From NCBI GenBank assembly GCA_029260215.1, contig JAJDDQ010000070.1:1-64000 (forward strand): a stretch of 64,000 nt of DNA, written 5' to 3'. Both the position numbers and the translations under genes were made by a program. Source of the DNA: Phycisphaerae bacterium. Its GTDB lineage: Bacteria > Planctomycetota > Phycisphaerae > UBA1845. Below the pieces are notes generated by a model. That model was not told where the DNA came from. It saw nothing but the letters and a program-made list of their open reading frames with translations, and made no database searches. Positions 1 to 13,397 of this stretch are shown here, piece after piece; within the stretch, counting starts at the first letter, position 1, and every line of letters starts with the position of its first letter.

Positions 1-883
1 CTTCATCACGTCTCCCGCTTTATCAACATGCTCTTGTCCCCTCCACGTTTCCGCTTCAGGTAAGCTGATTCATTTCGGAGCATCATCCTGAACTCCGGCT
101 GACTATGTCAGCAATTCCTACAACGCATTTCACGGCGCACCCTCTCGATGCATCCGGCTCTACGGGTCAGCAGCTTTGACGGTTGGTTAACTCCGTCCCC
201 TTTCAGTGGTTGGTGGCCACATTCCGGGTGCCGCTGCCCATTTCGATAACGTCAGACACGCGTTGTACGTTTCTGACAGCAGCGAAACAGTGTTTCGCCA
301 CCTTTATGGATATCACATTTCGGAATGCAAATCACGTTCTATCCGAGGTCCGGTAGGCACGGAATCGAGCCGCACACAGCGTTCCTGGAACGGCAATACG
401 TCGTTTGACTTTGGCCGAGCGAGTGTGCTACGGTCGAATTGGTCAAGGAGACTCGCAGGCAAGCGTCCACCCGGTCCTCGCTGTCGCGCAGGTAGCGACC
501 GTTTAGGCACATACGTTAGGTGGCCATCAACGACCTAGCGGTGGACGCAATCGCTTGAGCCCATGCCATGTGAAATGCCGGCGCTACGTCAGCATCTCAT
601 GTTCCGCGTTGCCCGTTCGATCGATTTCAGGCCCGCGTGGAGCCGCTTTGATGAGCCCTGGCGCCCATTTCCCAGCCAAACCGGGGGAAAAACCCCATTC
701 CCGAACCTTCCAGGGCCAGGCGTTGCACTGCCAGACACAATACGCTAGCATGGCTGTAAGCATGCGGTTGGGCTGCATGCTGAATCGTGGCCTCCTTTTC
801 CTCTGCTGGTTGGCGTAGAGCTTTCCATGGCCGCCGTGGTTCGGGTCGGGCTCTCAAGGTGCATTCTGTCGGAGGTCTTCGCT
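1..883. other. No recognisable gene
   Basis: Open frames here are short, arginine-rich or lack a ribosome-binding site, and none resembles a known family. They behave like shadows of each other. I see no RNA gene, transposase or CRISPR. The stretch ends just before a good GGAGG site (871-875) that serves the first lipoprotein ORF. It may be intergenic or decayed accessory DNA. Confidence 0.5.
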
Positions 884-1181
884 ATGCGACGTGCATCTTT
901 CCTGTGCTCCGTTCTTGGCATCACTATCTCTACGCAGTTCAGTTGTTCCATGCCCCTTCCCTGCGGATCAGGTTCAGAGCCTGCTGCAACGCAGTGGCGT
1001 GAGGAGCGAGGGACCGTCCCTCGCAGAAAGTCTCATGGCCGCTGGCTTCACGTCCGTCGGACCAATCGAACAAAACGGTGGAGTAACCACCAGAATACTC
1101 CTGACCGCAGATGGGACTCGTGGCGCGATTATCGTCTCCGAGGGAGGCAGCAGCGTCGTATGCGACACTACGACTCTGTAA
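884..1181 (+). pseudogene. Small lipoprotein-like ORF, apparent frameshift
   Basis: An ATG at 884 follows GGAGG by 8 nt and opens a signal-peptide-like N-terminus (hydrophobic run, then FSCS, a poor lipobox). Downstream in that frame the protein turns arginine-rich and shadow-like. The protein-like sequence (SLLQRSGVRSEG, LTADGTRGAIIVSEGG) lies one frame over and ends at TAA 1179-1181. A single frame change between about 945 and 1000 would join the two parts. A GTG at 891 could instead open the second frame, but it sits 15 nt from the Shine-Dalgarno. The next lipoprotein starts 13 nt after the stop with its own GGAG, so the two look co-transcribed. Function unknown. This could be a genuine pseudogene, programmed frameshifting or an assembly error. 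Confidence 0.4.
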
Positions 1182-1194
1182 TTGGAGATTCGTA

Positions 1195-3213
1195 ATGAAC
1201 GCCGTCGGAAAACCGAGACTCGACCCCAATGTTGCAAGTTCTTTGATCCGTCGAGGCCGGCGTAGAGGCTTTCTCCTGTCAGCGTCTGTCCTGCTCTGTC
1301 TGATGGGCTTACTCAACGGAGGATGCCCGAACATTGACAACGAAACCGATAGAACCACGCCCAGGATTACTAGCGCAATAACCCGTGACGGGGAAACGGC
1401 AATAATCGCGTCCCCGGCTAACGATTTCGTGGCTCTTGTTCGCTCAGAGTCTGTTGTCATGCTAGGTGACGATGGAGTGCGAATGTACTTTAGCGACGGA
1501 ACGACACTTCAGATTCGGCAAGTTGTCACCGGCTGCGACGACTATGATTTCCGCGACGACGTCGAAGGGGCCATTGAGGGTTTGCGTATCTGCACAACGC
1601 CGCTGCTGAAGACGCGCAAGGTAAACCCTGTTGATAATAAGCAAACCTATGCTATCCGTGTGGAGCCATCGCTTCCAACGAGGACCGCCTCGGATGAGTT
1701 CGGGATGCGGTCTATGCGCAATGATCGAAGTCACCCAGGTCTAGCTAGTGCCCCTCCAAAACTAGCTGGCATGTTGAAGGAAATTGAAGATTGCGTTCTC
1801 GACTTCTCTGACTTGGAGCCATACTTCGACTGCGTTGCCCAATCCTACCGGGACATGGCCGCCGGCCATCTCGAACGTTTGGCGAATGGCTTGGACGAGG
1901 CTGCGGACGATTTCGGAGGTGCTCTTGGTGATGTGCGGCAACGTGGCATAGATCTTGCGACGAACTGGACGCAGAACGTTGCTGATTTTCTCAGCGATGG
2001 GGAGATCGATCCAGTGAATCTCTTTGACCGTGCCTTGGGCAACGAAACCGTAACAGACCTCGTAGACGTCTATAGGCAGGGTGTCAACAGTTCGCCCTAC
2101 GAGTTTCAACCAGGCTCCACGTCCGGCACGCTCCGGGACTCCTCGTTACGGCAGGCAATCGAGGCCAACTTACGCCGGACCAACGACTCGACCATAACGA
2201 ATCCGACCAATGTGACCATCGATGATGTGTTCTGCAATCCGGGTACTGTCTTCGATCTGCCCAGCGGGACATGTAGATCACCGTTCGAATGCGTTCCAAT
2301 CTCGTGCAACCCAGGTTCTTCCTTCGATCTTGCCGCGTGCGATTGCGTTCCAGATCCCCGTAACTCCTGCCCGCCCGGGACAACGCTTAATGAAATCACC
2401 GGCGACTGCCGTACGCCAGATGGATGCGCCGCCGGAAGCGTGCTGGTCGAGAATCCCTTTGATCCGGGTGATGGTTTGGGATGTTGCCCACCTGGGCATA
2501 TCGCTGCTGGATTCGATGGAAACACGCTCTGCTGTCCGTCCGGCGAACCCTTCCGCCAACCCGATGGGCGCTGTACCGCAACGCCCGATGGCTGCCCACA
2601 AGGATTCACTCTGGGAAGCGACGGTGACTGCCGCAACGCGGAGGGATGCCCACCGGGGTTTCCGTTTCTTCTCAACGGGTTTTGCTTCTTGACTCCCAAC
2701 CCGTGTCCACCCGGCACCTCCGTATCTTCCACGGACGGATCATGTCAAACGCCGGAGGGGTGCCCCGGCAACCTCCCGTTTCTCGTCAACGGGTTTTGCT
2801 TCCCGACTCCCAACCCTTGCGTGTCCGGCACGTCTGTGTCTTCCGTGGACGGCTCATGTCGCACGCTGGACGGATGCCTAGCCACGTCCCCGTTTCTCTG
2901 GACCGACGGGCTTTGTCACGATTCCCCCCAATCGGGCAACGGTGGATCATGTGGTGACGGAGTCTGTGACACTTCGGCGGGAGAGCTGGACAGTTGCCCC
3001 GGCGATTGCCCAGCCGACTGTGGAGACGGCATCTGTAACGCCAGTGCGGGGGAGCAGCAATCCTGCCCGCAGGATTGTCCCCAAGTTCAGTGCTGTGTCG
3101 ATACAAATGGTTGTCCGTCCGAAGAACTCTTCTCGTGCCCAGGAGACTGCTGTTGTTGCTCCTCGGGGGCTCGATGCATTCGCCCACAGGGAGTTTGGAT
3201 ATGTGGGTTCTGA
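1195..3213 (+). CDS. Large cysteine-rich lipoprotein
   Basis: The protein is 672 residues with ATG at 1195, GGAG 8 nt upstream. The N-terminus has an arginine cluster, a hydrophobic segment (LLSASVLLCLMGLL) and a lipobox-like NGGC, so a secreted lipoprotein is predicted. Residues of about 50-350 are ordinary soluble sequence with no family I recognise. From about residue 340 there are imperfect cysteine repeats built on CPPGTSxSSxDGSC and GCPxxxPFLxNGFCF. The last 86 residues hold two CGDGxC...GE...CPxDC units followed by a CC...GDCCCC...WICG block, 18 cysteines in all. The same module ends the next gene. The CGDGxC repeat resembles metal-binding or disulfide-knotted surface repeats, but function is unknown. 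The following gene starts 75 nt later. Confidence 0.75.
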   Translation: MNAVGKPRLDPNVASSLIRRGRRRGFLLSASVLLCLMGLLNGGCPNIDNETDRTTPRITSAITRDGETAIIASPANDFVALVRSESVVMLGDDGVRMYFSDGTTLQIRQVVTGCDDYDFRDDVEGAIEGLRICTTPLLKTRKVNPVDNKQTYAIRVEPSLPTRTASDEFGMRSMRNDRSHPGLASAPPKLAGMLKEIEDCVLDFSDLEPYFDCVAQSYRDMAAGHLERLANGLDEAADDFGGALGDVRQRGIDLATNWTQNVADFLSDGEIDPVNLFDRALGNETVTDLVDVYRQGVNSSPYEFQPGSTSGTLRDSSLRQAIEANLRRTNDSTITNPTNVTIDDVFCNPGTVFDLPSGTCRSPFECVPISCNPGSSFDLAACDCVPDPRNSCPPGTTLNEITGDCRTPDGCAAGSVLVENPFDPGDGLGCCPPGHIAAGFDGNTLCCPSGEPFRQPDGRCTATPDGCPQGFTLGSDGDCRNAEGCPPGFPFLLNGFCFLTPNPCPPGTSVSSTDGSCQTPEGCPGNLPFLVNGFCFPTPNPCVSGTSVSSVDGSCRTLDGCLATSPFLWTDGLCHDSPQSGNGGSCGDGVCDTSAGELDSCPGDCPADCGDGICNASAGEQQSCPQDCPQVQCCVDTNGCPSEELFSCPGDCCCCSSGARCIRPQGVWICGF

Positions 3214-3288: not shown

Positions 3289-3912
3289 ATGAGTTGCAGC
3301 GTGGGAAACATAAGAACACAGCGCATTGTCTTTGCGGGGCTAGGCCTGTTCATAGTCGGCGGATGCTCCGATTTGGGGGCGGGATCCGGTTCAGGGACTG
3401 GCAGTCCGGCTGACCGGAATCCTGATGGGAGCTGCCCGGCAGGGCGAATACCGGCCATCAATGACCCCACTGTCTGCTGCCCGCCAAGCGCACCGCTGCA
3501 CCAAGGTTTCGGTTTTTGTAGCTTCACGGACCTCAACCCCGACAACTGCCCGCCTAATTCTACGTCGGATGGTTTCGGCACTTGCTTTTGCAACTCTGGC
3601 TTCGTCGTAAGTGGTTCACAATGCGTACGGGATGGCGGGAGTAGCAACTGTGGAGACGGCGTTTGCGATGGGTCATCTGGTGAACTAACGAACTGCCCAC
3701 AAGATTGTCCGGCTAACTGTGGTGATGGAGTCTGTAATGTGAGCGCAGGTGAACAGCGATCCTGTCCTCAGGACTGCCCCGAGGAGCAGTGTTGCGTTGA
3801 GACTAACGGCTGCCCGTCCGAAGAACTCTTCACTTGTCCTGGTGATTGTTGCTGCTGCGATAACGGAGCACGTTGTGTGCGACCGCAGGGTATTTGGGTT
3901 TGCGGGATATGA
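3289..3912 (+). CDS. Cysteine-rich lipoprotein, shares C-terminal module with upstream gene
   Basis: The protein is 207 residues. The start at 3289 follows AAGGAG. A hydrophobic stretch ends in a lipobox-like IVGGC, so an envelope lipoprotein is likely. The middle carries CPAGRIPAINDPTVCCPPSAP-type cysteine repeats. The last 86 residues match the upstream 672-residue lipoprotein with every one of 18 cysteines in register: two CGDGVC...GE...CPQDC units, then a CC..NGCPSEELF.CPGDCCCC block. Cysteine spacing is kept while the residues between drift, which points to disulfide or metal constraints. It is probably a shorter paralogue in the same transcription unit. Function unknown. Confidence 0.75.
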   Translation: MSCSVGNIRTQRIVFAGLGLFIVGGCSDLGAGSGSGTGSPADRNPDGSCPAGRIPAINDPTVCCPPSAPLHQGFGFCSFTDLNPDNCPPNSTSDGFGTCFCNSGFVVSGSQCVRDGGSSNCGDGVCDGSSGELTNCPQDCPANCGDGVCNVSAGEQRSCPQDCPEEQCCVETNGCPSEELFTCPGDCCCCDNGARCVRPQGIWVCGI

Positions 3913-7329: not shown

Positions 7330-8226
7330 TCACCCCATCGCCAAGGCAGCGTCCAGTTCATCGGCCACCACCACGGGAGCGACGGAAAGGCGCGGAAGTT
7401 CTTCCAGCTCGCCAGACAGATAGGCGTCGCGGTTCAGCACGCGATGCTCGACCTCTGCGGCAAGCTGCTTGTACTGCCTGGCAACACGGATGCGATCGTG
7501 TTTGGGCAACTGGAAAAGCGTCTTCCCCTTGCCGGACAGCATCGGAATGATCACTGCTTGAGAAATCACGGTGCTGAAGCGTCTTCCCGGCATGGCCTCG
7601 CTGACCACGGCATCGAGTTCTGCCTTCAAGCGCGTCGCCCGACCATCGACGTTGGTGAACACAATCCCGAGCACTTCCAGCTCTGGATTGCGCCTCGCTC
7701 GCACGTCTGCGATGTCGTTGAACGCCTCTGTCAATCCTCCAAGCGACAACGGATGCGGGAAAGCTGATAGAAGGAACCACTCCGACGACGCGTAGGCTGC
7801 GACCGTTGTAATGGCGGCGGCTGACGGTGGAGTATCAAGAAACACGAAGTCGTAGAGCTGTCTGGCCAGTGCCAGCGGTTGGTCCAGAATGCACGTCCGA
7901 TCGACGAACTTCGAGAGTACGACGTCCAGTTCCGAAAGCTGTGGCCTCGAAGGGACAAGGTGGACTCCCTTGGGCATGCCCTCTGTAATGGCAAGCGTCT
8001 GAACCGTTTCGTCCGTCGTCAGAAGCTCCAGCGATCCCGCGAAGCTGTTTTCCGGAACTCCCAGATGACGGGTTGCCCCGGCAGCCGGGTCCAGGTCAAC
8101 GATGAGGCACCGGTATCCGCGCAGCCCCAGCGCTGCGGCAATATGCACGCTGTTTGTTGTCTTGCCCGTGCCACCTTTCTGATTCCCAACGGCGATGACG
8201 ATTCCAAGTGGCGTGTTCTGTTTCAT
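7330..8226 (-). CDS. parA: ParA-type partition ATPase
   Basis: The protein is 298 residues. The ATG at 8226 is preceded by GGGAGGG. Residues 15-25 form the deviant Walker A motif NQKGGTGKTTN with the signature lysine K17. LIVDLDPAAGAT is the A' motif and DFVFLDTPPSAAAIT the Walker B region. There is no N-terminal DNA-binding extension, as in the short ParA class that pairs with RHH proteins. The ATPase would segregate or stabilise the element, together with the RHH protein encoded by the next, overlapping gene. An alternative is a chromosomal Soj-like role, but the neighbours (Rep-like protein, integrase) favour a mobile-element function. Confidence 0.85.
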   Translation of the reverse strand: MKQNTPLGIVIAVGNQKGGTGKTTNSVHIAAALGLRGYRCLIVDLDPAAGATRHLGVPENSFAGSLELLTTDETVQTLAITEGMPKGVHLVPSRPQLSELDVVLSKFVDRTCILDQPLALARQLYDFVFLDTPPSAAAITTVAAYASSEWFLLSAFPHPLSLGGLTEAFNDIADVRARRNPELEVLGIVFTNVDGRATRLKAELDAVVSEAMPGRRFSTVISQAVIIPMLSGKGKTLFQLPKHDRIRVARQYKQLAAEVEHRVLNRDAYLSGELEELPRLSVAPVVVADELDAALAMG

Positions 8227-8822
8227 GATTCCCTCCCTGATTCCGTTTGCTTCAAACATCGTTCAACAATCTTCCACGCTCGATGCCCACTTGGATGTCC
8301 TGCTTGCCGGCAACCCCGATGGCCTGAAAGCGTGTACCTCTTGCTTACCTCAAGCCCATAGGCTCGCGCAAGACCCTTTTCTGCCTACGAAGCGAAAAAA
8401 TGACAGAGGGTGCAGGACTTCCCGCCTGCGGGATGTCTGGCGTTCCGGATTTCAGTCATGCATGTTTCGGTGATCAGGACTTGTTCGGTTACCAAGAACC
8501 GATCTACGTTGACTGCAACCGGAATCGGAATGCCTTGAGCCGTAAATGCTCGACGTGCATCTGAATCTGAACAAGGACTACTTGGTGAACTGATTTAGGA
8601 GCTGAGCGGCGTAAGCGGCCATTGTAGCCGCCGCTCGCGCCCAGCAGGTAATGATTGTCGATGACCGACGGTGAAGTTGCATTCTCGTCGTAGCGCACTC
8701 CGTCGCGCGTGTCAATGTTTCGTTCGACTCAATCCTGCCAGTCGTATCGTCTCAGCGATCAAGCTCGCCAACGGGTAACGCGGACGCCCGCCGAGTGTTC
8801 GCCTAAAACACTGTGTCGAACA
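8227..8822. other. Gap between divergent parA and rep-like genes, with hairpin
   Basis: No convincing gene is present. At 8604-8636 an 8-bp perfect stem (GAGCGGCG / CGCCGCTC) encloses a second short inverted repeat and has no T-run, so it is not a normal terminator. A gap between divergent partition and replication genes is where a plasmid origin or parS site would be expected. I see no clear iterons. Confidence 0.35.
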
Positions 8823-10007
8823 ATGACTCGAAAGATAAATCCGGAGAACGATCTCCGAGTGACCGCGAAGAAGCCCGCAGGCGGGTTCACTCTCGTGTCC
8901 ACAGGTGTGCTTCTGGCTGCCTGGTGCGCCTACAGAGCCAAGATTCTCACCTTGCTGGACCTCAGAGTCTGGCTGGCCTGTTTGGAGTTGATTTCGAGGC
9001 GCTGTGAGCTTGAAGCGGTGAGGAAGCCGAGATTCCGTATCGCTGAAGTTCGTTCACTCGTCGGTTGCCAAAACGACGTTTCGATCCGTCGCGCCGTGCG
9101 ACGTTTGGCCGGCATGCGTTTGTTGATCAGATCGGGCCAGAAGCTCTCGATTCCCAGGACAACCGCGTGCCTCAGCTTCTCCACAGACCCAAGTGTGATA
9201 AGCCGCGTGGAAGCTGCGCCGAGCACCCGGCGAATCGTTCCTGTTCCGCGTAGGCTATTGCGCTACCTGGCGAAATCCGGGCGGGCGTCAATCATCGCGA
9301 CGACGTTCGGCCACCTCATCCGTTGCCTGTTCTACCGGAATGGCGAATGCGTATCTGGTGGACGGTGCAAGGCTTCGTGGATCGCCGAGGTTTTCGAGGT
9401 CGATTTGCGGACGGTGAAGACGGCACGTAAGGAACTTGTCGATCTGGGATGGCTTGTTGCCAGGAAGGCAACCCAGTGCCAACTCAATCGATGGGGTCTG
9501 CCTGTAGTGATCAACCTCGAATGGGTGCCATCGTGCGACACCCCGGTGTGCGGATCACCACCGCCAACCCGCGGAAACGAGGCCGGATCGCCACCCCCAA
9601 TAAGAAACAATGAACTCTCTTCGAGAGTTAAGAACCATGAACCCGCCAAGCGCGGGCCGGCTGGTGTTTCTAACAAGAGCAACCCGCCGCAGCCGCCAAG
9701 CCTTAGGCGCGTCGAAGCCGAAGATCTCAACGATCCGACCCGCCTAGAAGAACTTTACCGGCAGGCCGTCCGAAATCGCCTGCTTCAGTCCACGCCTTGC
9801 GACCGCCTGCGCTTCTTCGGTGCCGCAGAACGAGCGAAACGGGTTGGTGAGCGCAATCCGTGCGGACTGTTCATCTCTCTTGTTCGCCGGCAGCAATGGG
9901 ATTTCATCACTCAGCGCGATGAGGACCGAGCGGTCCGGGCAGTGAAGCGCGTCGATGATCCGTTGGGGCATCGGCTCTCGCGTGAGAGAATCGCAAATTG
10001 CTGCTGA
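8823..10007 (+). CDS. Putative replication-initiator-like double winged-helix protein
   Basis: The protein is 394 residues from ATG 8823; the frame is open to 8709 but that extension looks non-coding, and neither start has a good Shine-Dalgarno. Two helical DNA-binding-like regions can be seen: residues about 25-110 (SIRRAVRRLAGMRLLIRSGQ) and about 135-240 (KASWIAEVFEVDLRTVKTAR, KELVDLGWL, wing-like QLNRWGLPVVINLEW). The C-terminal third is proline-rich, then helical. Two winged helices in tandem recall plasmid Rep proteins, and the gene is divergent from parA. No catalytic motif is visible. It could instead be an element-borne regulator. Confidence 0.45.
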   Translation: MTRKINPENDLRVTAKKPAGGFTLVSTGVLLAAWCAYRAKILTLLDLRVWLACLELISRRCELEAVRKPRFRIAEVRSLVGCQNDVSIRRAVRRLAGMRLLIRSGQKLSIPRTTACLSFSTDPSVISRVEAAPSTRRIVPVPRRLLRYLAKSGRASIIATTFGHLIRCLFYRNGECVSGGRCKASWIAEVFEVDLRTVKTARKELVDLGWLVARKATQCQLNRWGLPVVINLEWVPSCDTPVCGSPPPTRGNEAGSPPPIRNNELSSRVKNHEPAKRGPAGVSNKSNPPQPPSLRRVEAEDLNDPTRLEELYRQAVRNRLLQSTPCDRLRFFGAAERAKRVGERNPCGLFISLVRRQQWDFITQRDEDRAVRAVKRVDDPLGHRLSRERIANCC

Positions 10008-10135: not shown

Positions 10136-11374
10136 CTATCCGACTTTGGCCATGATGTCAGCCGCCTTCGCCAGATCCAATTCGGCGTAGACCTCCGTTA
10201 CCGCCGAAGAGGAGTGCCCAAGGACCACGCGGGCGGCCTCGATACCGAATTCCTTGCGTAGGAACGTCGCCGCATTGTGCCTCAGCCGATTCGGCGACCA
10301 GCGATGCTCGATCATCCAACGCATCCGGTCGTCACCTTCGAGTCCTTCCGGTGGTGGAAACGCCCGCGCGCACGCCTTTGCGATCGCCCTCGCGTAGCTG
10401 CCGGGTGTGTATCGATCCCCCGGAGGCCGCTTCGGAAACGCCTTGCGGCGATTGGCCTGGCTTGGCTGCACCCGCGTCTTTCGGTTTCTTCGCATCTCAT
10501 CCCGCATCTCGGATACGACATCGGCGGGGCTGAATGTGTATGAGCCCGGGTCGCGTTTCAGAAACGGCAAGACCACACGTTGGGCCTGCGGTCCCAGGTA
10601 GATGATACGCTTCCGTCCGTGATGCTCGGTCTTGTGCGAACCCGGTTTGTATGCCCAGATCTTCCCGGTCCGGTCCAAGTCGCCAGTCCGCATGGTTACC
10701 ACCTCACCTGGGCGCATGCCCGTAAGGAACTGGAGGCGGATCATCGTCGCAATCTGACGAGGGGCGACCTTCAGAACCTCGTCGATTCGTTCCTGTGGCA
10801 CCGGGCTAACCGGCTCGGTTTCGCGTGCTGCCGATCGGCCACGTTTCAACGGAGCTACGGCCTGAAGCCCGTGTAGCACCGTGGGCGGCACGAGTTCACG
10901 CTCGACACCCCACTTGAACATCCGGCGGATCCGATTGACGCGTGAGTTGATCACACGACGGCACAGGTCGTCATCCATCATCCGTTGCCGCACGGCCCTC
11001 AGCCCGCTCGGACCGAAGTCGGCAACGAGCGTCTTGCTGTACACCGATGAGACGCTCCGCATCGCGTCCCGGATGTTGTCCTGCTCGCGAGTCGGCTGCC
11101 CGTTCTTGACGTAGTAGCTCGACGCGAACTCCAGGTACGCCAGCATCAACTCCGCCACGCTCAGGGCGTGCGGCGACTCGACGAACTCGCGCCGAGCGGC
11201 CAACTGCCGGTTGTTTGCCAGCCACTCGGCGATGACCTGCTGGTAAAGCTGGCGGCTCTCGTCGGTCCCGTGCATGCCGAGGTAGATGTCGCGCCCATTC
11301 AGGCGGACGACGGCGTACTGGGTCGGCTTGTGAAGACGGTACTTGGGGATTCGAGTGGAGTTTCGTTCGGGCAT
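10136..11374 (-). CDS. Tyrosine recombinase (integrase)
   Basis: The protein is 412 residues. ATG 11,374 follows AAGGAG. A phage-type SAM-like N-terminal domain (about 70-190) precedes the catalytic domain. Visible active-site residues are R221 (TGMRPGEVV), K248 region (HKTEHHGRKR), R365 and H366 (NRLRHNAAT), H387 (VLGHSSS) and the nucleophile Y396 (VTEVYAELD). The HxxR histidine is replaced by N362, which is tolerated in some integrases. It would catalyse integration and excision of the element. It lies at the element's right end, pointing inward, 115 bp from the tRNA-Gly fragment that marks the attachment site. A strong palindrome lies 20 nt upstream of the start. Confidence 0.9.
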   Translation of the reverse strand: MPERNSTRIPKYRLHKPTQYAVVRLNGRDIYLGMHGTDESRQLYQQVIAEWLANNRQLAARREFVESPHALSVAELMLAYLEFASSYYVKNGQPTREQDNIRDAMRSVSSVYSKTLVADFGPSGLRAVRQRMMDDDLCRRVINSRVNRIRRMFKWGVERELVPPTVLHGLQAVAPLKRGRSAARETEPVSPVPQERIDEVLKVAPRQIATMIRLQFLTGMRPGEVVTMRTGDLDRTGKIWAYKPGSHKTEHHGRKRIIYLGPQAQRVVLPFLKRDPGSYTFSPADVVSEMRDEMRRNRKTRVQPSQANRRKAFPKRPPGDRYTPGSYARAIAKACARAFPPPEGLEGDDRMRWMIEHRWSPNRLRHNAATFLRKEFGIEAARVVLGHSSSAVTEVYAELDLAKAADIMAKVG

Positions 11375-11393
11375 CGTAGGGCTCCTTTGGCTG

Positions 11394-11415
11394 AAAAGTG
11401 GTAATTACCACTTTT
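11394..11415. promoter_or_regulatory. 22-bp perfect palindrome upstream of the integrase
   Basis: The arms AAAAGTGGTAA / TTACCACTTTT form a perfect inverted repeat, extendable to about 29 bp with one extra T. It is between the integrase start and the tRNA-derived end. It may be an operator for integrase expression or an arm-type or accessory site used in recombination. Confidence 0.45.
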
Positions 11416-11488
11416 TCAGGCCTTCAGAGCCGCTCTGCCCGACGCAGGCAGGTACGCTAAGTAGCGTTCGGCCAAGGGTTTATATCAA

Positions 11489-11530
11489 AGCGGGCGAGCG
11501 GATTCGAACCGCCGACGTCCAGCTTGGGAA
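11489..11530 (-). other. 3' half of tRNA-Gly(CCC): element attachment-site remnant
   Basis: Read on the minus strand this matches positions 32-73 of a tRNA: anticodon loop TTCCCAA (anticodon CCC), 3' anticodon stem GCTGG, 5-nt variable loop ACGTC, T-arm GGCGG-TTCGAAT-CCGCT, acceptor strand CGCCCGC and discriminator T. The layout matches bacterial tRNA-Gly(CCC). The 5' half is missing: the fragment stops at the anticodon loop, where coding sequence of the downstream gene begins. Elements that integrate in tRNA genes carry exactly such a 3' fragment. It is therefore an att core, not a functional tRNA. Conceptual translation of this piece gives a spurious GERIRTADVQ-like peptide. Confidence 0.85.
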
Positions 11531-11531
11531 G

Positions 11532-13397
11532 ATGATCGTCGAGCGTATGCTCAAAGCCGTCGACAAGCTGGACACCTATTCCGACAGCGCCGTGTTCAAG
11601 TTTGAGATGGGTGGGACGTTCAACCAGGGCGAGCAGGCTTCCTCGTTTGCGTACGTTCGCCCCAACAAGTTCCGCATTACATCGTCGATGCATGAGGTCG
11701 TTTGCGACGGCAAGGAACTGACGGTGTACATGAACGGGATGCGGCGCTATACATCCGAAAGAGTCGGCAAGGATATTGAAAAGCAGGTCGCGCGATTCTT
11801 CGGGTTCCGGGGCGTTTCTTTCGGGATTGGACAACTGATCCTCGCGGAGAATCCGCGCGAGACGTTCGCGGAGCAATTCGAGAAAATCGATCTCGCCGGC
11901 CCTGAGAAGATCGAAGGAGACCCGTGTCTCAAGCTTGTCGGCTTCATGCAGTCGTCGGTCTTCGGTATGGCCGACGCGGAAATCCCCGTTTCAATCTGGA
12001 TTCGCGACATCGATCATATGATTCGGCGCGTCGAGCTGGACCTTCTGGAGGCGATGAAGCATCAGACCTCCAATACGACGGACATGGATTTGCCGTTCAA
12101 GGAATACCGCATGATCTACGACGTGCGCGAGTTGGCCTCAAACGAAGAGCTTGAAGAAGAAACGTTTCGCTTCGAGCCGCCCAGTGGGGCGAAGAAGGTC
12201 AAGAAGTTCTACACGACAATGTTCGGAGCCGGCGAGACGGCTGTTCAGTTCGAGTTGTCCGGCAAGCCGGCTCCCGATTTTGAACTCGAGACGGCCGATG
12301 GTGGCTCCGTTTCGCTCGACGATCTGACGGACGGGGCTTTGTTGATGGTCCTGTTGCCACGCTGGTCGGGTTCGAACTACGCGGGGATGGAGGAATTGGG
12401 CGAGATTCAGAAAACCTATGCGTCGAAGGGGGTGACGGTCCTGTTGGTGCATCAGGGCGACTCGGCAAACAAGCTCGTAGACTACCTGAGCGAAAAAGAG
12501 ATCGAATTGAAGGTAGCCGTCGACCCTGGCGGCGAATTGTCGTCCGATTATTCCAAGGAGCGTTTCGGCGGCACGATTGTAGCCATCGCGAAGGGCGGAA
12601 CGGTGCAGGGGCGGTACTCGTCGTTCGTCACCGGAGAATTGGCTGACGTCATCCGAAAGGATTTGGATCGTTTGACGGCCGGCGAAACGCTCGCGTCAGC
12701 CAAGGAGATGACGGACGAGGAGATCGAGGAAGCGTCAGACCAGCGATCCTCGCGTTTTTCGTTTGGCAAGACGGCTGATCCGGTAAACGAAGACGATTTG
12801 CGGGAGTCGTGGGCGGTGCGTGCGGGCAGCTCGCGCAACTTTACGATGCAGGGCGGGCGATCTCCGGGGTCGTCGGACGATCTGTGGATTCGCGATCGCG
12901 ACACGATAAAGCTGGTGTCACCGTCGGGCGAAGTCACGACGGAGATTGAGTTGCCCGACCCAGCCAAGAGCCAGTATTCGCAAGAGCAATTCGTCGTCGG
13001 ACGGTTCGGCAGACAATTGGGCGTGCTCTACATGAAGACGATCCCCGGCGAGGAAACGCAGCAGGGATGGCGACCGCCGAAAGAAGCGATCCTGACGGCT
13101 TCGACGGTGTTCGGCGTGGTCTTGTGGGAAATGAGCTTCGAGCCTGAAAATTATCAGTTGCCGCAGCACATGGCCATGGCAGATTTGGACGGCCGCGGGG
13201 GCGACGAGGCGATCTTCGTGCATCAGGGGGCGATCTGGATCATCGACGGTGCGAGCGGCGAAGTATTGGCGCGCAAACCCGTCGTCGGGTGGGCGCAATG
13301 GCTGACAGCCGACGACCGAGACAACAATCGCGTGGCGGAACTCTATCTGCGGACGCCGGAAAAATTGATTCGGTTCGATTACCGGCCATCGCGGTGA
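11532..13397 (+). pseudogene. 5'-truncated secreted DUF2092-like/thioredoxin-fold protein
   Basis: From MIVERMLKAV onward (about 620 residues) this is a clear paralogue of the intact gene at 13,414, but the signal peptide and first ~35 residues are replaced by the tRNA-Gly fragment of the integrated element. The remaining domains are a DUF2092-like region (RPNKFRI, ELTVYMNGMRRYTS), a thioredoxin-like region (GKPAPDFELETADGG) with WSGSN where a WCxxC centre would be, and a C-terminal FG-GAP-like part (MADLDGRGGDEAIF). ATG 11,532 could restart translation, but there is no signal peptide and no properly spaced Shine-Dalgarno, so export is lost. The frame is otherwise intact, suggesting recent inactivation. 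Confidence 0.7.

Follow-up and report, generated by a model that had tools for sequence, protein, structure and literature searches.

How does one half of a tRNA gene come to be fused to the interior of a protein gene? This question is raised by a locus of a Phycisphaerae bacterium (assembly GCA_029260215.1; 4.97 Mb in 88 contigs, 97% complete), in which the whole stretch analysed, here called the window, comprises positions 1-64,000 of the forward strand of contig JAJDDQ010000070.1 (C67), that is, 64,000 nt from the start of this contig. At 11519-11538 the window reads CCAGC-TTGGGAA-GATGATCG, and its minus strand from 11530 to 11489 matches the tRNA-Gly(CCC) gene of contig C66 at 42 of 42 nt; the match covers the 3' half of that gene, from base 1 of the anticodon loop (TTCCCAA) through the last base of the acceptor stem, and is far beyond chance. 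The original prediction, which described this junction sequence as a tRNA-Gly(CCC) 3' half severed exactly at the anticodon loop, was thus confirmed. The half tRNA passes directly into codon 38 of a gene without a start, related to DUF2092 and AhpC-TSA/redoxin proteins (PF09865, E=8e-15; PF00578). No complete tRNA was detected within the window, which also lacks any Rfam match at the gathering threshold. The features at the junction and to its right are the following:

11489..11530, minus strand: element-borne 3' half of tRNA-Gly(CCC), 42/42 against the tRNA-Gly(CCC) of C66
11524..11530, minus strand: attL crossover core TTCCCAA (anticodon loop), of which TTCCCA is common to attR at C7:33241-33246
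11525..13397, plus strand: disrupted DUF2092-redoxin gene, codon 38 onward (3' part), with its start and signal peptide on contig C7
13414..15375, plus strand: intact downstream paralogue, 653 aa, whose start region is the same as that of the severed half

A pattern search of the genome located the core and its following stem at three places only, C66, C70 and the window. Of these three Gly(CCC) 3' halves, that of C66 belongs to an intact tRNA, that of C70 lies at an element-end junction and that of the window lies inside a gene; restoration of an intact tRNA, seen in relatives and on C66, is absent at the copy fused to the protein gene. The C66 gene, the sole intact tRNA-Gly(CCC) copy found in the genome, adjoins a related integrase, in agreement with the expectation of an intact copy elsewhere, and a related element occupies it.

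The start of the disrupted gene had been predicted to lie outside the window, beside a second core at the far end of the element, and it was found in the same assembly. A search with the start region of the paralogue recovered C7:33240-33371, and a protein search led to the same place, an orphan N-terminus (residues 1-37, 70% identity). The minus strand of C7 reads an ATG, a signal peptide and a segment ending in KDYTPTGK up to ACCGACTGGGAA, beyond which there is no gene, and this half joins the other end of the element through the 6-nt core TTCCCA; an element end within an intact tRNA-Gly gene was not found on this side.

C7:33237-33353, minus strand: start and signal peptide of the disrupted gene, codons 1-37, beside core TTCCCAG

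When the C7 and window pieces, whose junctions were both read from assembled contigs, are fused at the common TGGGAA, they form a single open frame of 659 aa beginning MSKCVGYTIVGVVLLVSGAHAGDKPAKFKFKDYTPTGKMIVERMLKAVDK, with 413 identities to the paralogue over 659 columns and no break at the join; 28 of the opening 40 columns of the alignment are identities, KFKDYTPTGKMIVERMLKAV across the join among them. Since the halves fuse into one open frame that follows the paralogue, the gene was most likely once intact, and the element would now part codons 1-37 from the remainder. The sequence of the target before insertion, deduced from both halves, would be CCGAC-TGGGAA-GATGATC. Each half of this non-cognate target adjoins one end of the element, and the two junctions have a short core in common.

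The paralogue is complete and reads CCAGC-CGGGAA-AATGATCG, as had been claimed, and it is followed by lpxB, rpsB and tsf. In a relative (G003) a DUF2092 homologue stands about 7 kb before lpxB-rpsB-tsf in like order and orientation, which shows the right flank to be core chromosome. On the left flank, likewise chromosomal, C7 carries etfA and etfB. An etfAB pair adjoining a DUF2092 gene was not found in the relatives examined, and for this reason the empty site is deduced from its two halves. A close relative with an empty site was likewise not found; the homologues available are distant (32-51% identity), uninterrupted and free of the element. The disrupted copy is nearer to the genes of the relatives than the paralogue is (in G015, 51% as compared with 42%), so that the copy struck was probably the ancestral one. 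As the remaining 621 codons are still open, the event was probably recent. The disrupted gene may by now be non-functional or its product mislocalised.

Altogether, this evidence makes it very probable that a tRNA-Gly(CCC) island has integrated at a secondary site in the DUF2092-redoxin gene, a gene coding for a secreted protein, as had been proposed for an integrase element using a secondary site in a gene; the finding of the missing half was decisive here. The island, 45 kb or more in length and equipped with a tyrosine integrase that normally recombines its attP with the tRNA-Gly(CCC) anticodon stem-loop, would have integrated once within this chromosomal gene, with strand exchange inside the 6-nt TTCCCA identity. 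The tRNA 3' half on the integrase side, which in normal integration would restore the tRNA, would thereby have been joined to codon 38, and the signal-peptide half of the gene to the far end of the island on C7. The integrase is presumed to be the agent of this exchange.

The element would span at least 45 kb, with about 33.2 kb on C7 and 11.5 kb in the window. Its left part carries these features:

1..141, minus strand: multi-copy insertion resembling a group II intron (5' end, starting GTGCGCC), at which C67 breaks inside the element
7330..8259, minus strand: ParA-type partition ATPase of the element (PF13614, E=1.8e-33; phrog_164)
8709..10007, plus strand: putative replication initiator of the element (weak match to phrog_270, E=1.8e-4)
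10136..11374, minus strand: tyrosine integrase, 412 aa (PF00589, E=7.6e-11; phrog_1), within the tRNA-Gly(CCC)-using clade of the tree
11375..11488, minus strand: element end between tRNA half and integrase, with a CGAACGCTACTTAGCGT-like motif

The C7 end contains the motif AAGATGCTGnAAnCAAAG / AAGATGCTGTAAACAAAG about 50 nt before core TTCCCAG, and the tRNA halves of C70, L064 and L074, the last two from other planctomycete genomes, are preceded by the same motif at a similar distance; it is thus a right end conserved within this family of elements. The CGAACGCTACTTAGCGT-like motif of 11375-11488 is kept near the tRNA-Gly copies of C66, C70 and C61 and is a probable integrase-arm or regulatory sequence. 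At C61:66047-66140 (L005) a tRNA-Gly(TCC) gene is followed by the motif GAACGCTACTTAGCGTGCCTG as in the islands, with no integrase nearby, and this site is possibly the remnant of an old island end.

Besides the ParA-type ATPase and the putative initiator, to which a protein at another element end (L183) is similar, the cargo includes, on C7, a type I restriction-modification system (HsdM, HsdS, HsdR), a Lamassu-type set (LmuA, LmuB and an ABC-3C middle component), Hsp70/GrpE/VWA genes and a second tyrosine recombinase. The latter, XerC/D-like (PF00589, PF02899) and located beside Hsp70/GrpE/VWA at C7:15231-16214 (L013:2232-3215), possibly marks a nested element. Relaxase or mating-pair genes were absent among the ORFs scanned, which are part of the total of an incompletely assembled interior. 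In the window, two adjoining cysteine-rich proteins without Pfam match (1111-3213 and 3289-3912) have a near-identical tail (CGDGVCD...QCCVxTNGCPSEELFxCPGDCCCC). The group II intron-like sequence occurs in two related islands (window 1-141 and C66:1), where it breaks the contigs, and also at C3:42844-43011 (L202), where a reverse transcriptase gene comes after the GTGCGCC sequence, an arrangement known from group II introns. C7, to judge from its letters, looks as if it terminates near an insertion-sequence end, and the ends of C7 and C67 have no overlap of 19 nt or more. Given these breaks in the element interior, we infer that the two pieces belong to one continuous copy.

The integrase begins 115 nt past the tRNA half, and its best matches are mostly from Phycisphaerae and other planctomycete MAGs. 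Related integrases were gathered from GTDB genomes and from the order of the window, giving 128 non-redundant loci, and a complete tRNA gene stands directly upstream of the integrase at 97 of these, with 27 anticodon types; tRNA-Gly(CCC) is the commonest site (19 of the 97). Among planctomycete relatives, about 120 integrases are found at tRNA genes, and the patterns used detected no relative of the integrase in viral contigs. The sister of the window integrase in the tree (support 100) is one of 74% identity (L042) that adjoins an intact tRNA-Gly(CCC), and in the 13-member clade that includes both the assigned sites are otherwise all tRNA-Gly(CCC). As both the sister and the clade use this tRNA, the gene insertion is a single off-target event at one tip of the tree, not a new habit.

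With respect to the target, the prediction that the gene already had a tRNA-anticodon-like core stood for the 6-nt TTCCCA identity but not for the anticodon stem-loop as a whole: tRNA CCAGC-TTCCCAA-GCTGG and target TCATC-TTCCCAG-TCGGT match at only 11 of 17 positions, with six mismatches, one of them in the loop. A TTCCCA core with six or fewer mismatches was found at 18 sites in 187 kb of the genome, or about 480 when extrapolated to the whole of it, an upper estimate that includes true att copies. The notion of a strikingly tRNA-like target was therefore discarded, and the core explains the position of the crossover, not the choice of site. Also, the CCAGC of the junction, which had been regarded as an arm of the old target, belongs to the tRNA half of the element, the target having read CCGAC, so that the CCAGC of the paralogue is no sign of a tRNA-like arm.

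Half tRNAs, from the anticodon loop on, were detected at about 21 of the 128 loci. Four of these (G109:C132, G100:C7, G026:C1 and G037:C350) lie downstream of a complete-tRNA copy on one contig, in the same orientation and 50-157 kb apart, and hence represent tandem arrays. Since such arrays are common, occupation of the primary site on C66 is no bar to further integration. At other half-tRNA loci the end motif (C70, L064, L074) or element genes come directly before the core, and several were not assigned to tandem arrays, as L104, beside a transporter-like gene. Apart from the window, none of the approximately 21 loci has its half-tRNA junction within a recognisable gene. A general origin of half-tRNA junctions by gene insertion was rejected, the resolvable ones being element-element junctions.

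This survey bears on a different reading of the window, in which the half tRNA would mark a junction of tandem elements, or the attP of an episome, with the DUF2092 genes as cargo of the next element. The majority of the other half-tRNA junctions are of tandem type (the four contigs, and C70, L064 and L074 with the motif), which speaks for it. However, the flank in the window lacks the element-end motif, is coding up to the core and leads to lpxB-rpsB-tsf, conserved in relatives, and the severed gene half adjoins the element end on C7; this reading is already largely refuted and very improbable. Chimeric metagenome assembly, with both joins as artefacts of contig building, might be considered for a genome in 88 contigs, yet it is very improbable, as two independent contigs would have to be misjoined at the same 6-nt core, one for each element end, and the misjoins would have to rejoin as one open frame that matches the paralogue. 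It could also be proposed that the gene pieces stem from different paralogues or loci and were united by recombination of two element copies (inversion or translocation), considering that several related elements are present, that the element interior is unassembled and that the relatives examined do not have etfAB beside DUF2092. Against this, the genome has a single orphan 5' piece and a single orphan 3' piece. The two complement each other exactly at the core, with the reading frame preserved, and each resembles the neighbouring tandem paralogue, making such an origin highly unlikely as well.

Integration of islands at secondary sites is already known, and the present case is a well-documented natural example of it. 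ICEBs1 of Bacillus subtilis uses a 17-bp attB in a tRNA-Leu gene, with 5-bp inverted repeats and a 7-bp spacer, and its secondary sites differ by about 2 to 12 mismatches (PMC3715440). It likewise combines a tRNA-specific tyrosine integrase, a 5-7-5 site, insertions into protein genes at poor matches and a crossover in the spacer; however, its secondary sites were mostly obtained in the laboratory after deletion of the primary site (PMC3715440), whereas the planctomycete case is a natural event in which the primary tRNA is present but occupied. Excision of ICEBs1 was reduced or eliminated at all secondary sites analysed, and mismatched 7-bp spacers cut the circle yield further (PMC3715440). 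By analogy, the present copy is probably poorly mobile, its excision presumably impaired by the imperfect core.

Salmonella genomic island 1 also shows a secondary attachment site and tandem arrays (PMC2297512), and differs in that its primary site is trmE and not a tRNA gene (PMC8409611). tDNA islands of the type collected by Islander have an anticodon-centred attP, a 3' tDNA fragment beside the integrase and tandem arrays as well (PMC4383910). The CDS filter of Islander discards tDNA fragments that overlap conserved parts of protein genes (PMC4383910), and thus an insertion of the present kind could be missed by it.

The case described here is natural and precisely mapped, with its junctions, the deduced pre-insertion sequence and the cognate site all from one genome. 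With 6 of 17 positions mismatched, it illustrates how lax an integrase of the anticodon-loop kind can be in choosing its site, and the survey shows how off-target half-tRNA scars differ from tandem-array junctions. The large integrase family, with at least 27 tRNA anticodon types and at least 47 anticodon changes on the tree, offers material for studies of target switching. A mismatched insertion would leave a hybrid core that the excised element could carry to a new site; that off-target insertions are intermediates of target switching in this planctomycete family is an unlikely proposal.

Other observations concern individual loci. The second related element junction of this genome, C70 (L016), lies on a contig with inverted copies of the same sequence, about 130 nt each, at its two boundaries. 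This sequence is probably an insertion sequence and has also taken the place of the final residues of the C70 integrase, just past the catalytic tyrosine. At L097:3451-3881 (Isosphaeraceae MAG, JAJPJC010000545.1), a family integrase stands beside a tRNA whose anticodon is apparently CAT. A group I intron (RF00028, 42.1 bits, E=3.7e-8, under the gathering threshold) interrupts the anticodon loop of this tRNA, and its assignment as a half tRNA was rejected in favour of an intron-split tRNA. As this intron lies within the attachment core, intron and integrase element share one site. In all three integrases of the genome, box II reads PNRLRHNAAT (alignment A1 positions 361-370; window about 10265-10294, minus strand), with asparagine where most tyrosine recombinases carry the first histidine of HxLRH.
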